64,000 bases of DNA from an uncultured Comamonas sp. (GTDB taxonomy: Bacteria > Pseudomonadota > Gammaproteobacteria > Burkholderiales > Burkholderiaceae_C), in NCBI GenBank assembly GCA_947306475.1, contig CAMZGS010000011.1, positions 62,001 to 126,000 of the forward strand, read 5' to 3'. Shown here in pieces: positions 1,514-16,180 of the stretch; position 1 is the first letter of the stretch; every line of letters starts with the position of its first letter. The position numbers were made by a program, and so were the translations under genes. A model generated the notes under the pieces. It had not been told where the DNA came from. It saw only the letters and a list, made by a program, of their open reading frames with translations, and did no database searches.

Positions 1514-4270
<2,757 letters not shown>

Positions 4271-4478
4271 AGGACTCACTTGTGGGAAAACAGGGGGCAA
4301 AACGAGGGCAAAGAGGGCGGATTTTAGCGACTACAGGTTTGTGAGCACTCTGCGCTGATATGGCGGCCCTGGAAGGCCTGCCGCAGCCCCCGGATTGATG
4401 GGCCGCCACTCCCGGCACGGTACGGGGCCCGGATCAGCAGACAGCAGCCCGGCCGACGCAACAAGCTATTGATTCATG

Positions 4479-4554
4479 AGCTGCTTGCGCTGATCTGAAA
4501 AGATTTTTGCAATCAAAACCATCCAAAAACCTTTTTGGGACAGCGCAGGCAGCT
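4479..4554. repeat. Palindromic repeat element, copy 1 (intergenic)
   Basis: A 76-bp imperfect palindrome with terminal arms AGCTGCTTGCGCTG (4479-4492) and CAGCGCAGGCAGCT (4541-4554), matching at 13 of 14 positions. The AT-rich centre is low-GC compared with its surroundings. It lies between metH and the regulator gene. It shares arm architecture (AGCT, then 3-4 bases, then a GCGCT-like core) and length with the copies at 20958, 35696 and 41034. Confidence 0.7.
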
Positions 4555-4555
4555 A

Positions 4556-6004
4556 TCAAATCAATGAATCTCCACCTTCGGCGCGTGGCGCGCCAGCGGC
4601 TTGCTGCTCCTGCAGGGCACGCAGCCGCCGGTACAGGGTGCGGGGGCTGATGCCCAGTGCACGGGCCTGCTCCAGGCGTGTGCCCTGCGGGCCGTGCAGG
4701 GCAGCGCGCAGGGCATCGTCCTGCAAGGCACGCAAGGCGCGGCGCGGCGCCGAAGGGGTGGGCGGGATGTGCTCGTTGGCATCCACCCCGATCTGCCGGG
4801 GCACAAAGCCCAGGGCTCGCTGCACGGTGGCAGCGCTGATGCTGTGCCCGTCGGTCAGCAGCGCAGCGCGCACCAGCACGTTGCGCAGCTCGCGCACATT
4901 GCCGGCAAAGGGGTGCTGGGCCAGCGGCTGCAAGGCCTGCGGGGCCAGCTCCAGCCGCCGCCCCGGGGCGATGCGCTGCAGCAGGGCCTGCACCAGCAAG
5001 GGAATGTCGCCCGCGCGCTCGCGCAGCGCGGGCAGGGTGATGGGGAAGGCGCTCAGGCAGTGGTACCAGTCAGCACGCAGGCGGCCCTGGCGCACCAGGG
5101 CGGGCAGGTCGTGGCGCGTGGTGGCCAGCAGGCGCACGTCGGCGCGGCGCAGTTCGCTGCTGCCCACGCGCCGGTAAGTGCCGCTTTCCAGCAGACGTAG
5201 CAGCTTGGCCTGCACGCCCAGGGGCAGATCGCCCACTTCCTCCAGCAACAGGCTGCCGCCGTGCGCCGCTTCCACCAGGCCGCTGCGCGCGCCTTGGCCG
5301 CCGGCGCCCTTGGCCAGGCCGAACAGTTCGGCCTCCAGGACCGCCTCGCTCTGGCCGCAGGCATCGACCACCACCAGCGGGTGCGCCGCCCGTGCGCTGG
5401 CCTGGTGGATGGCGCGTGCCGCCAGGGTCTTGCCGGTGCCGGTCTCGCCGTGCAGCAGCACGCAGGTTTCGCTGGGCGCCACGCGCGCCATCAGCTCCAG
5501 CGCCGCACGAAAGGCTGGTGCGCGCCCCAGCAGGGGCTGTTCGTCGGGGTGGCTGGCGGCCAGCGGCAGGATGTGGATTTTTTCCAGGAAGTACTGCGCC
5601 TGCCCCGGCCCGGTGTGCAAGGGTTGCAGCTCGATGTGGACGTATTCCTCGCCCCGGCTGGTGTGGTGCAGGTGCAGCACGCGCTCGCGCTGGCCGCTGT
5701 ACAGGGCACGCGCCAGCGGGCAGGTTTCCCCGGCCTGATCGCAGGGAACGTCGGAGTGGTGCGAGACGGCATGGCAGGTGCGCCCCAGCACGGGCGTGTT
5801 CTGACCGAACTCGCGCCGGTAGGCACTGTTGGCGGCCAGGATGCGGTAGCGGCTGTCGAACAGCACATGGGGCTCGGGCAGGGTTTCCAGCCAGGCCTCC
5901 AGCACGGGCGGCAGCGTTGACAGCAGCCCGTCGGCAGCGGCGGGGCCCACGGCGGCCAGCGCCACCGAGGCGGCATGAGGGGGATGTTTGCGGGGCATGG
6001 GCAT
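4556..6004 (-). CDS. PAS-AAA+-Fis transcription regulator (NtrC-like), GAFTGA motif degenerate
   Basis: With the ATG at 6004 as start the protein is 482 aa. An N-terminal PAS-like sensor (about 40-115) contains a cysteine/histidine-rich stretch with CHAVSHH followed by PCDQ and TCPL, a pattern that could bind metal, haem or sense redox (inference). The AAA+ domain has Walker A GETGTGKT (186-193), a Walker B-like LLLEEVGD (252-259, where the usual LFLDE is changed) and an arginine-rich sensor region. A C-terminal Fis-type helix-turn-helix ends the protein. Where sigma-54 activators carry GAFTGA, this one reads GAGGQGA (233-239). That suggests it may not remodel sigma-54 holoenzyme, as in TyrR-like relatives. 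It is divergent from ccoG. The start is uncertain: ATGs at 6055 and 6085 are also in frame, and none has a clear ribosome-binding site. Confidence 0.8.
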   Translation of the reverse strand: MPMPRKHPPHAASVALAAVGPAAADGLLSTLPPVLEAWLETLPEPHVLFDSRYRILAANSAYRREFGQNTPVLGRTCHAVSHHSDVPCDQAGETCPLARALYSGQRERVLHLHHTSRGEEYVHIELQPLHTGPGQAQYFLEKIHILPLAASHPDEQPLLGRAPAFRAALELMARVAPSETCVLLHGETGTGKTLAARAIHQASARAAHPLVVVDACGQSEAVLEAELFGLAKGAGGQGARSGLVEAAHGGSLLLEEVGDLPLGVQAKLLRLLESGTYRRVGSSELRRADVRLLATTRHDLPALVRQGRLRADWYHCLSAFPITLPALRERAGDIPLLVQALLQRIAPGRRLELAPQALQPLAQHPFAGNVRELRNVLVRAALLTDGHSISAATVQRALGFVPRQIGVDANEHIPPTPSAPRRALRALQDDALRAALHGPQGTRLEQARALGISPRTLYRRLRALQEQQAAGAPRAEGGDSLI

Positions 6005-12549: not shown

Positions 12550-14064
12550 ATGACTTTGGCCGACCGCGTCCGCTTCCCCCAATTTCACAACCGCATCATG
12601 AGTGCAGCCGAGGCAGCCGCCCTGATCCCCCACGGCGCCAACGTGGGCATGAGTGGCTTTACCGGCGCGGGCTACCCCAAGGGCCTGCCCCAGGCCATTG
12701 CCGAGCGCGCCAGGGCCGAGCACGCTGCGGGCCGCCCCTACAAGCTCAATGTGTGGACGGGCGCCTCCACCGCCCCCGAGTGCGACGGCGTCATGGCTGA
12801 GGCGGCTGCCATCGGCCAGCGCCTGCCCTTCAACACCGACCCCACCACGCGCAAGCAGATCAACGCCGGGCAGATCGACTTCATCGACATGCATCTGTCG
12901 CACGTGGCGCAGCACGCCTGGTTCGGCTTCTTTGGCAAGATGGACGTGGCCGTGATCGAAGTGCTGGGCGTCACGGCCGATGGCCTGCTGATCCCCTCCA
13001 CCGCCGTGGGCAACAACAAGACCTGGCTGGAGATTGCCGACAAGGTGATCCTGGAAGTCAACACCCGCCTGCCCATCCAGATGGAAGGCATGCACGACAT
13101 CTACTACGGCACCGCCATTCCGCCACGGCGCATGCCCATCTCCATGACGCATGCCGACAACCGCATCGGCGAGCCTTACCTCAAAGTCGATCCCAGCAAG
13201 GTGGTGGCCGTGGTGCACACGCACGGCGGCGACCGCAACAACCAGTTCAGCGCACCGGACGAAGCCTCCAACCGCATCGCCAGCTACATCATCGACTTCC
13301 TGGTGCATGAGATGCACGCCGGGCGCCTGCCCAAGCAGATGCTGCCGATCCAGTCGGGCGTGGGCAACGTGGCCAATGCCGTGCTGGCGGGCCTGCTGCA
13401 CGGGCCGTTCGAGCAGCTGCTGGGCTTTACCGAGGTGCTGCAGGACGGCATGCTCGAGCTGCTGCGCGCCGGCAAGATGAGCCGCGCCTCGGCCACGTCG
13501 ATCTCGCTGTCGGCCAAGGCGTTTGAGGATTTTGAGAAGAACATCGACTTCTACCGCAGCCGCATCATCCTGCGCCCGCAGGAAATCTCCAACCACCCCG
13601 AGCTGGTGCGCCGCCTGGGCGTGATTGCCATGAACTCGATGATCGAGGCCGACATCTACGGCAACATCAACTCCACCCACCTGATGGGCAGCAGCATGAT
13701 GAACGGCATCGGCGGCTCGGGCGACTTTGCGCGCAACGGCTATCTGTCGTTCTTCGTCACGCCCTCGGTGGCCAAGGACGGCAAGATCAGCTGCATCGTG
13801 CCCATGTGCTCGCACGTCGATCACACCGAGCACGACACGCAGATCATCGTCACCGAACAGGGCCTGGCCGACCTGCGCGGCCTGGCCCCACGCCAGCGCG
13901 CCAAGGTGATGATCGACAAATGCGCCCACCCCGACTACCGCCCCATGCTGCAGGACTACTTCGACCGCGCCTGCAGCAAGGGCGCGCTGCACACGCCGCA
14001 CATCCTGACCGAGGCGCTCTCCTGGCACCAGCGCTTCCTGGATACGGGCGATATGCGCGTTTGA
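12550..14064 (+). CDS. Acetyl-CoA hydrolase / succinate:acetate CoA-transferase family protein
   Basis: A 504-aa protein of the class I CoA-transferase (AarC/SpcA, acetyl-CoA hydrolase) family. The active-site glutamate that forms the CoA thioester is expected at Glu295 in GFTEVLQDG, nearly the same position as Glu294 of AarC. The glycine loop GIGGSGDFARNG and the ADIYGNINSTH segment are also present. It would interconvert succinyl-CoA/acetate with acetyl-CoA/succinate, or hydrolyse acetyl-CoA, and so link to acetate or citric-acid-cycle metabolism. The start at 12550 follows a GGAG ribosome-binding site (12538-12541). A structured leader lies directly upstream. Confidence 0.9.
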   Translation: MTLADRVRFPQFHNRIMSAAEAAALIPHGANVGMSGFTGAGYPKGLPQAIAERARAEHAAGRPYKLNVWTGASTAPECDGVMAEAAAIGQRLPFNTDPTTRKQINAGQIDFIDMHLSHVAQHAWFGFFGKMDVAVIEVLGVTADGLLIPSTAVGNNKTWLEIADKVILEVNTRLPIQMEGMHDIYYGTAIPPRRMPISMTHADNRIGEPYLKVDPSKVVAVVHTHGGDRNNQFSAPDEASNRIASYIIDFLVHEMHAGRLPKQMLPIQSGVGNVANAVLAGLLHGPFEQLLGFTEVLQDGMLELLRAGKMSRASATSISLSAKAFEDFEKNIDFYRSRIILRPQEISNHPELVRRLGVIAMNSMIEADIYGNINSTHLMGSSMMNGIGGSGDFARNGYLSFFVTPSVAKDGKISCIVPMCSHVDHTEHDTQIIVTEQGLADLRGLAPRQRAKVMIDKCAHPDYRPMLQDYFDRACSKGALHTPHILTEALSWHQRFLDTGDMRV

Positions 14065-14081
14065 GGTTTTGAAGTATGCGG

Positions 14082-14103
14082 GGCCGCCCCTTACCGGGCG
14101 GCC
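14082..14103. terminator. Hairpin between convergent genes, possible bidirectional terminator
   Basis: Perfect 8-bp stem GGCCGCCC / GGGCGGCC with a 6-base loop. It lies 17 bases after the CoA-transferase stop and about 50 bases beyond the stop of the convergent nuclease-like gene. There is no T-run on either side, so the assignment as a terminator rests on position only. Confidence 0.35.
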
Positions 14104-14152
14104 AATGGTTGCCTGGCCTCACGCAACAGCCGCCGCCACCAAACCCTGGCCG

Positions 14153-14647
14153 TCAGGTCGGGGGAACCACCAACACGGTGGCCTGAAGATCAATCCGGAA
14201 ACCGTACTTCCTGAAAAAACGCAGCTTGAATTCGCTGTCTAGGGGTACAAAAACCTTGTGGCGTTTGTTGCAGGCAAATGCCTTTTTGTGCCGAAATACC
14301 TGCAAGTCGTGATGTGCGGCCAGCAGCTCAATGGTGGAAGACAACTGCCCAATCGCCCGCTGTTGCCAGTCTGCTTTTTGGTCCTTCAGCTCCACCAAGT
14401 ACAGCAGGTTGGACGCAGTCAACATGCCATCGCAGCGCCCTTGACCAGGCAAGGCAGCGTCCTGAATCACGCATTTATCGATGGCCGTAAAGATGATGGA
14501 TAGACCCGACGGGTTGTCAACCGTAGCCACCCATTTGTCAGGATGGTCAGTATCCACATAAGCAGGCGTGGTGTTCTGGTCATCGCACAGGCCAAACCGT
14601 TTCTGGTCAAAGGGACCGCTCTGGCACGCCGACTGAAAGAAGTCCAT
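14153..14647 (-). CDS. Small protein with a PD-(D/E)xK nuclease-like motif, partner of the ATPase
   Basis: A 164-aa protein that I do not recognise by family. Residues 72-88 read CDGMLTASNLLYLVELK, with Asp73, Glu86 and Lys88 spaced as in PD-(D/E)xK nucleases (D, a hydrophobic beta strand, then ExK). Gln101 in AIGQLSS sits one helix later, as the conserved Gln often does in this fold. It has no signal peptide or membrane segment. The stop codon of the upstream ATPase (TGA) directly abuts this ATG, so the two proteins should be translationally coupled and probably act together. Base composition is clearly less GC-rich than neighbouring genes, which suggests acquisition by transfer. The nuclease role is inferred from the motif alone. 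Confidence 0.6.
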   Translation of the reverse strand: MDFFQSACQSGPFDQKRFGLCDDQNTTPAYVDTDHPDKWVATVDNPSGLSIIFTAIDKCVIQDAALPGQGRCDGMLTASNLLYLVELKDQKADWQQRAIGQLSSTIELLAAHHDLQVFRHKKAFACNKRHKVFVPLDSEFKLRFFRKYGFRIDLQATVLVVPPT

Positions 14648-15922
14648 TCAAATCGCCTCTTCCAGTTCTAGCAGTTTATCGAACAACTCATTGCCGGTAC
14701 GCAGCCAGCCGTTGAGCACGTTGTCATCCGACGGAATGCCCTCAAAACACGGCAGACGGGTGATGCTGCCATCGCGCTCGCTGCATTGGTAGATCGCCAC
14801 ATCGTCGGGCGCCAGCAAGGCTGTGGGAGGCACAATTTCCTCCAGCCTAGTCTGCAAATCCGTGCGGCCACTTTCGACAATGCGCTGCTGCACGTGCCTA
14901 GCCTGAATGGCCAGACTCAGGTAATTGACGATGTACGGGCTGTGCGTTGTCAGCACCAAGCGGTTGTGTGGCCCCTGACTGTTGAAGGCCAGCAGACTCT
15001 TGAGGATGTCCCACTGCGACGATGGAAACAGGTTTTGCTCTGGCTCTTCCACGATGTTGATGAATGCCGTCTTATTGAACCGGGCCGACAGCACCGACAG
15101 TGCCGCCCGTTTCTGCTCATCGGTCAGCGTAGGGTTGGCAAAAATGCTTTCCACCCCTTGCTTGAAGCGCGCTAGCTCGTCGGCACTCATGGGCTGCTGG
15201 CTGAGTTGGCTTTGTTCCTGCACCGTACGGGCCAGATACTCACTGACCAGATACAGCGGTACAAACGACTGAAAACCACTGGAGGCATCGGTCAACCGCA
15301 GTTTGTGCCCCGGCCCCTTGAGGTTGAGGATGCCATTGAGCTTGTCGTACTCGATTTCACTCTGGTTGATGGGCAGGCGCATCACCCCACGCAGGCTGTG
15401 CTTGGCCTGCTCAAAAGCCGTCAGAAACTCTTTGAGCGCATCGGACGACAGTTTCAGCTCCCGAGGGTTGCGCACATACGCAATGAAATTGCGCTCCGCC
15501 GGTACATACATCACCTGGGGCAAGGCATAGCCTTGGTTGCCCGACTCGGTGATGCTCATCTGACGGTCACCGGCGTACTCAGTAATACTCAGTTGCCCCC
15601 CGGCATAACGGATGGAGCAGGCACTGCCCTGGTACTCGATTTCAGCATCCCCCCACTGATTAGATTCGAGGTAATGCTCCAAACGGTGGTAGGTGAGAAA
15701 CTGGCTTTTCAGGCGGCCTTTGCGCTCAAACCATTTTTTCTCGTAGTCACCACGCACCAGCGCTTTTTCCATCCACGAAAACGTGGAGAACAGCTTGGCC
15801 ACCGTGCTCTTGCCTGCCCCCTGATTGCCAATGAAGACCGTCACCCGCTTGAAGTCGATCCAGCCACCGTTGTCCGACAGGCCGGGGCCGATAGGGCCAA
15901 AATTTTTGAGAAAGAGACGCAT
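14648..15922 (-). CDS. AAA/ABC-type ATPase of the OLD-like group (defence-type), first gene of a two-gene cassette
   Basis: A 424-aa ATPase with Walker A GNQGAGKST (32-40), an ABC-like signature DASSGFQS (212-219), Walker B FINIVEEPEQNLFP (287-300) and LTTHSPYIV (324-332). This order matches the AAA_15/AAA_21 ATPases of OLD, PtuA and AriA type. No TOPRIM nuclease domain follows, in contrast to OLD or GajA. The C-terminal 90 residues have no motif I know. The nuclease activity may come from the abutting downstream gene. GC content is lower than in the flanking metabolic genes, and no ribosome-binding site is obvious. The pair sits alone between a CoA-transferase gene and ilvA. Confidence 0.8.
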   Translation of the reverse strand: MRLFLKNFGPIGPGLSDNGGWIDFKRVTVFIGNQGAGKSTVAKLFSTFSWMEKALVRGDYEKKWFERKGRLKSQFLTYHRLEHYLESNQWGDAEIEYQGSACSIRYAGGQLSITEYAGDRQMSITESGNQGYALPQVMYVPAERNFIAYVRNPRELKLSSDALKEFLTAFEQAKHSLRGVMRLPINQSEIEYDKLNGILNLKGPGHKLRLTDASSGFQSFVPLYLVSEYLARTVQEQSQLSQQPMSADELARFKQGVESIFANPTLTDEQKRAALSVLSARFNKTAFINIVEEPEQNLFPSSQWDILKSLLAFNSQGPHNRLVLTTHSPYIVNYLSLAIQARHVQQRIVESGRTDLQTRLEEIVPPTALLAPDDVAIYQCSERDGSITRLPCFEGIPSDDNVLNGWLRTGNELFDKLLELEEAI

Positions 15923-16180
15923 GCTGGATTTCGTTCTATCGAGGCTTGCACATAGCAGAAGATGCGGTGGAGGCAGCGTGGCGCAGGCTGCCGTTCAGTA
16001 GATCGACTGAAGATACACGAGAAACTAGGCACACCATAGGCCGGTCAATGGCCCCCATGCCGCTCCATATCGCTCCGATAACAAGAGCATCTGCCACTGA
16101 TTCTGGTTGGTTTTCATGTAGTTTTCTATCTGAAATTTAGAAAAATCAAACGGCTACAGCTCTTTTTTATAGAGCAAGCA

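Follow-up and report, generated by a model that had tools for sequence, protein, structure and literature searches.

A PDC-M29-type ATPase and candidate nuclease gene pair of an uncultured Comamonas sp. and its repeated occurrence beside type I restriction genes

Introduction

When an ATPase gene is followed directly by the gene of a small candidate nuclease in the middle of metabolic genes, two questions arise: whether the pair defends its host against phages and, if so, whether such a system already has a name. We examined a pair of this kind, here called A and B, in a stretch of 64,000 nucleotides (the window) from an uncultured Comamonas sp. (GenBank assembly GCA_947306475.1, contig CAMZGS010000011.1, positions 62,001 to 126,000). 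The original prediction had proposed a candidate defence cassette of an undescribed kind. Our analysis assigns the pair to the catalogued candidate family PDC-M29, where PDC presumably stands for phage defence candidate. The pair is real, maintained, patchily distributed and probably defensive, and its relatives repeatedly adjoin type I restriction genes.

Results

Family and class of the gene pair

Both proteins match the PDC-M29 models of PADLOC-DB 2.0.0 over nearly their full lengths. A matches PDC-M29A with an E-value of 4.7e-181 (residues 2-423 on profile positions 3-409 of 410), and B matches PDC-M29B with an E-value of 3.4e-68 (residues 1-161 on positions 1-161 of 162). The catalogued family likewise consists of two adjacent genes, and no difference from it was seen in the window; its PADLOC entry is that of a candidate only. 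Judged by these sequence matches, the window pair is a member of PDC-M29 and not a new kind of system. The name PDC-M29 was not found in the open-licence literature searched, which lacks most subscription papers. Two other PDC entries, called putative and never previously verified, have been tested and showed no activity (PMC12409345).

The wider class is already in print. WonAB consists of an ABC ATPase and a PD-(D/E)xK nuclease, aborts phage infection and inhibits translation, with both activities required; its description links it to PD-T4-4 and to an operon called 'OLD-ABC ATPase + Novel REase' (PMC12137116). A review table gives PD-T4-4 as an AAA_15-type ATPase with a PD-(D/E)xK nuclease (PMC10952713), the same combination as in the window; B gave no PD-T4-4 match in PADLOC at E <= 1, a search made without confirming that PADLOC includes a PD-T4-4_B model. 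WonA (AWB73975.1) and WonB (AWB73976.1) were themselves compared by description only, with an Escherichia coli pair, L116, as stand-in (loci carry L numbers and genomes G numbers). The small L116 protein has 145 amino acids, a mass of 16.14 kDa and the motif lysine K71, and WonB, of 16.1 kDa, loses its activity through K71A (PMC12137116). Residues K33, R181, E300 and H336 of the L116 ATPase lie near WonA K34, R182, E300 and H333.

Because the window pair shares with WonAB and the WonB-like L116 the order of an ABC/OLD-type ATPase gene with ABC motifs and then a small PD-(D/E)xK gene, we place it, on sequence grounds, as a branch of this published class. Within the class, the window A and the L116 ATPase share about 25% identity, and B, at 18.5 kDa against 16.1 for WonB, has a conserved N-terminal stretch of its own. 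The earlier claim that the pair is undescribed and fits no named system is therefore rejected: the PADLOC run suggested as a check returned PDC-M29 directly, the kind of match that the original prediction had named as refuting it, and WonAB and PD-T4-4 share the architecture.

Coding evidence, motifs and composition

The pair consists of two abutting open reading frames, as first described, and the TGA of A stands immediately 5' of the ATG of B (Table 1). Compared with the nearest relative, L002, the nonsynonymous (dN) and synonymous (dS) divergences by the NG86 method are 0.0281 and 0.4989 for A and 0.0703 and 0.5808 for B. Changes at the three codon positions number 16, 13 and 101 in A and 16, 7 and 47 in B, with the third position dominant. 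Since dN is far below dS and third-position changes are in excess, A and B are both maintained, and they are real protein-coding genes rather than chance open reading frames.

Table 1. Positions of the cassette, its two genes and their motifs in the window
Feature	Position	Strand	Evidence or conservation
Inserted two-gene cassette	14057..16107 (right edge 16078-16107)	.	blastn against L104 and L105
Gene A, 424-amino-acid ABC/OLD-type ATPase, PADLOC PDC-M29A	14648..15922	minus	
Gene B, 164-amino-acid candidate PD-(D/E)xK-type nuclease, PADLOC PDC-M29B	14153..14647	minus	
A, Walker A GNQGAGKS, residues 32-39, lysine K38	15806..15829	minus	K38 in 34/35 aligned ATPases
A, ABC signature-like SSGFQ	15269..15283	minus	S215 and G216 in 35/35
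A, Walker B end EEPE (E292-E295)	15038..15049	minus	35/35
A, H-loop THSP (H327)	14936..14947	minus	H327 in 35/35
B, motif RCD, catalytic-type D73	14429..14437	minus	D73 in 35/36, C72 in 35/36
B, motif E86-L-K88	14384..14392	minus	E86 in 35/36, K88 in 36/36

The motifs are conserved in the relatives, and the reading of an OLD/Septu-type ABC ATPase with a separate small PD-(D/E)xK-type protein is supported. In B, the predicted residues D73, E86, K88 and Q101 were located as claimed and are aligned in the relatives, and the E and K of the motif are invariant across 16 divergent partners. The Walker lysine of A, given before as K39, is K38. In the alignments, L005 was omitted from A2 and from the tree, L035 was omitted from A1, and an in-frame TAG in the A gene of L057 was left as is.

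The guanine-plus-cytosine content is 0.655 over the whole window and 0.651 and 0.666 in the metabolic genes that flank the pair, but 0.563 in A and 0.537 in B. The pair thus lies about 10 points under its neighbours, in agreement with the lower content noticed before. A scan for promoters and terminators gave no signal beyond chance.

Domain and fold comparisons

Pfam recognises AAA_15 and AAA_21 in A and has no credible match for B, and NCBIfam gave no match above its cut-off. The predicted fold of A is that of a PtuA-type ATPase, with the Septu ATPase among the best matches. Solved structures, searched by sequence and by profile, offered nothing relevant (one search gave only FtsE, at 9.5e-05), and Foldseek of B against the PDB and viral models gave nothing with E < 0.05. 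The PD-(D/E)xK motif and the position of B fit the WonAB-type class, and its fold is only weakly matched in solved structures. B was not found in phage records, and the A1 profile had no match in viral contigs.

Several known systems were considered and rejected. For Septu and the PtuAB retrons, the PtuA-type ATPase fold is present but the partner is not: PtuB is characterised by an HNH nuclease motif (PMC13096335), whereas B has a conserved D...E-x-K, no HNH Pfam match and no PtuB match in PADLOC at E <= 1, where only PDC-M29B and a weak Cas4 match appeared. OLD, Gabija and PARIS were set aside on the same D...E-x-K partner and on the lack of a TOPRIM Pfam match in A or B at E <= 1. A Cas4-like iron-sulphur nuclease was also considered for B and not established. 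The cysteines C8, C59, C72 and C126 are nearly invariant, C72 is retained in most distant partners and there is a weak Cas4 match (E 0.027), but the cysteines are not all retained in the distant partners.

Co-occurrence, rarity and insertion

Searching genome contigs with B yielded 35 loci, and every one of them has a homologue of A directly upstream in the same gene order, with a spacing of -14 to +4 bases (at L005 the contig includes no more than the end of A). In the reverse test, A alone was searched at E <= 1e-20 in 395 genomes of Bacteroidota, the phylum of L014, and gave at least 24 matches at no fewer than 23 places in at least 20 genomes; these counts are lower bounds because four first-look candidates were scored per genome. 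A partner matching the B profile stands at 22 of the 23 places, one of which (L075 and L078, counted once) is broken in both genes. The expected co-occurrence of the two genes is thus confirmed from both sides. The sole exception, L077 (G737:C8, 1483-2736), carries a homologue of A without B; one neighbouring gene matches a type II restriction enzyme model, and another resembles a DNA methyltransferase by eye.

The pair is also rare. Of 398 genomes drawn from the window's phylum, 2 contain B, and of 37 from its genus, 2 contain a close A; the window's own genome is one of the two in each case. In a control of 14 known genomes, the B model matched in none and the A model in eight at E 0.001.

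Same-genus genomes reveal the insertion. At L104 and L105, 50 and 19 bases, respectively, replace the cassette of about 2.0 kb and the flanks lie close together. L106, L107 and L108 are likewise without A and B, with flanks 362, 369 and 450 bases apart. These five were the informative ones among seven stretches, since L103 has the left flank only and L109 ends with its contig. No recognisable gene besides A and B was found in the cassette. The pair is co-inherited and has been acquired, with patchy gain or loss.

Neighbouring type I restriction genes

Type I restriction genes adjoin the pair in 11 of the 35 loci (phmmer with a few chosen queries). In eight of these, hsdS lies upstream and hsdR downstream (L003, L004, L006, L007, L008, L022, L024 and L027); hsdS is immediately next to A in L003, L004 and L008, and genes intervene in the other five. 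Six of the eight also have hsdM (L003, L006, L008, L022, L024 and L027). Only hsdR was found at L002 and L005, and only hsdS at L035. The HsdR proteins of Pseudomonadota and those of Bacteroidota have no mutual phmmer match at 1e-8. We also scanned up to two crudely called open reading frames on each side at 33 of the loci (L005 and L035, at contig ends, were omitted). Seven of these 120 neighbours match Methylase_S and eight match SWI2_SNF2, and matching type I models appear in PADLOC among the 25 families listed of 180. Among the 23 Bacteroidota places, viewed with about 1.5 kb of flank, four have an hsdR- or hsdS-like neighbour (L060, L061, L062 and L069).

At the other 24 loci no type I genes were detected within the stretch examined. 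Few defence genes were recognised there, partly by eye and among the same listed PADLOC families, and more may be hidden. The suggestion that the homologues lie in defence islands therefore holds for the loci with type I genes, and a defence-island location for every PDC-M29 locus, looked for among those families, was not borne out. No report of PDC-M29 in type I restriction operons was found under the family's name in the open-licence literature mentioned above.

Some loci carry further genes near the pair. At L006 (6907-8700), a DUF262 (GmrSD-type)-like gene, recognised by eye, also lies between hsdS and A. L022 (8244-8678) and L024 (5065-5457) have in the same place a small protein, in both cases of the same family and resembling GxxExxY/PDDEXK_3 proteins by eye. 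Upstream of the pair at L028 (5159-7909) is a 917-amino-acid protein that resembles a STAND-type NTPase by eye and may be the product of a further defence gene.

Probable loss of restriction genes from the window

On a quick tree of the 35 ATPases, in which 10 of the 32 inner branches are starred, the restriction-flanked label changes at least five times. The window holds a solo pair within a supported clade of eight rows, and the other seven rows are all restriction-flanked. In a sister genome, G419, hsdR still stands beside the pair, and its product is 72% identical to the HsdR of L003. The nearest HsdR of the window's own genome (G000) is only 35% identical to the same L003 protein, and Methylase_S matches occur in G000 on two other contigs. 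Given the restriction-flanked clade, the hsdR of G419 and the distant HsdR of G000, the window's cassette most likely lost its restriction genes; the direction of this change is inferred. In the sister genome with hsdR, the ilvA neighbour of the pair is fragmented (L002, 7924-8730).

Discussion

Proposed mechanism

We consider it quite probable that the pair is a member of the PDC-M29 branch of a phage-defence class in which a small, separate PD-(D/E)xK nuclease works with an OLD/ABC-type ATPase sensor in an ATP-gated, abortive manner. The pair is probably active in defence; this activity, the formation of a complex by A and B, the trigger and the target are inferred. A would dimerise around ATP and carry B. 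A phage-induced change, such as a blocked restriction enzyme, an altered nucleotide pool or damaged DNA, would shift the ATPase, and the shifted A would activate B. B would then cleave a nucleic acid that the phage requires to grow, with tRNA, rRNA or another RNA as the most likely substrate, and the infection would abort. A is placed as an activator rather than an antitoxin because WonA is needed for the toxicity of WonB (PMC12137116).

The view of B as an RNA-cutting abortive effector is the most likely one by analogy, because WonAB and Septu behave in this way: excess WonB blocks translation and leaves genomic DNA intact (PMC12137116), and Septu, whose ATPase resembles A, cleaves tRNA-Tyr (PMC13096335). 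Both observations weigh against direct degradation of phage DNA by B. However, McrC, FokI, EndoMS and Hjc, all DNA-cutting enzymes, are among its weak fold matches, and we regard direct cleavage of phage DNA as the less probable activity, though one of appreciable likelihood.

Trigger and alternative functions

The restriction loci raise the question of what triggers the pair, and two accounts, both statements on the trigger, are compatible with the ATP-gated abortive mechanism. The pair between hsdS and hsdR may sense inhibition of the type I enzyme by an anti-restriction protein of a phage and abort the infection, as does PrrC, which lies within a type I locus and responds to inhibition of its enzyme (PMC12707154). 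The loci flanked on one or both sides, with their two mutually unmatched HsdR groups, are consistent with such a role. However, most loci have no detected type I genes, the window's solo pair is under purifying selection without them, and the hsdS-hsdR junction has been described as a potential hotspot for defence systems (PMC12255303), so a role in guarding restriction seems unlikely. Alternatively, the pair may be an independent companion at a recombination hotspot, acting on another class of phage than the restriction enzyme and having no mechanistic link to it. Precedents are TgvAB, a complementary system inside a type I operon (PMC11411939), and DarTG2, which lies between hsdS and hsdR (PMC12255303). 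An ATPase pair, which may or may not be of this family, is also reported from the hsdS-hsdR interval (PMC12255303). The repeated change of the restriction-flanked label on the tree also fits this account. Only the many copies without type I genes separate it from the former, and because of these copies we lean somewhat towards the independent companion over an obligate guardian. PrrC, TgvAB and DarTG2 have placement inside an hsd operon in common with the restriction-flanked PDC-M29 loci, and by their published descriptions the proteins are different.

A broader version would make PDC-M29 a modular type I guardian whose home, in Pseudomonadota and Bacteroidota alike, is the hsdS-hsdR junction. 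Its ATPase would sense the blocked complex and activate the PD-(D/E)xK effector, and solo copies would be descendants with a switched trigger; this we rate as slightly less likely again. The housekeeping-looking neighbours of several copies, recognised by eye, and the existence of Cran1, a non-defence OLD-family ATPase in archaea (PMC12796447), would allow a cellular maintenance module instead of defence. The rare and patchy distribution of A and B in the window's phylum, its genus and Bacteroidota, the empty sites, and the restriction-operon and mobile-element contexts argue against maintenance, which we consider very improbable.

For PDC-M29, until now a PADLOC candidate with a serial number, the analysis offers a mechanism-level hypothesis, a genomic habitat and a tie to the WonAB class. 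The recurrent occupation of type I restriction operons in two phyla is the part worth pursuing. The natural series of hsdM-hsdS-[A-B]-hsdR, A-B-hsdR and solo A-B makes the choice between guardian and companion testable.

Distant pairs of the same kind

Distant ATPases with the same kind of small partner were found at L039, L040, L082, L111, L112, L113 and L116. The L040 pair is flanked by phage structural-looking genes, those of L111 and L112 are plasmid-borne, and that of L113 comes from a phage clone. The L116 pair (3574-5321) belongs to an E. coli prophage that looks P2-like by eye, where it is annotated only as an AAA family ATPase and a hypothetical protein; among 5426 E. coli genomes, 10 contain L116 over at least 80% of its length. 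The plasmid-borne pair of L111 (2983-4687), from Bacteroides finegoldii, sits within a run of glycosyltransferase genes. At L082 (7750-9472), a genome of the window's own genus (G428) carries a different ATPase together with a 153-amino-acid VELK protein.
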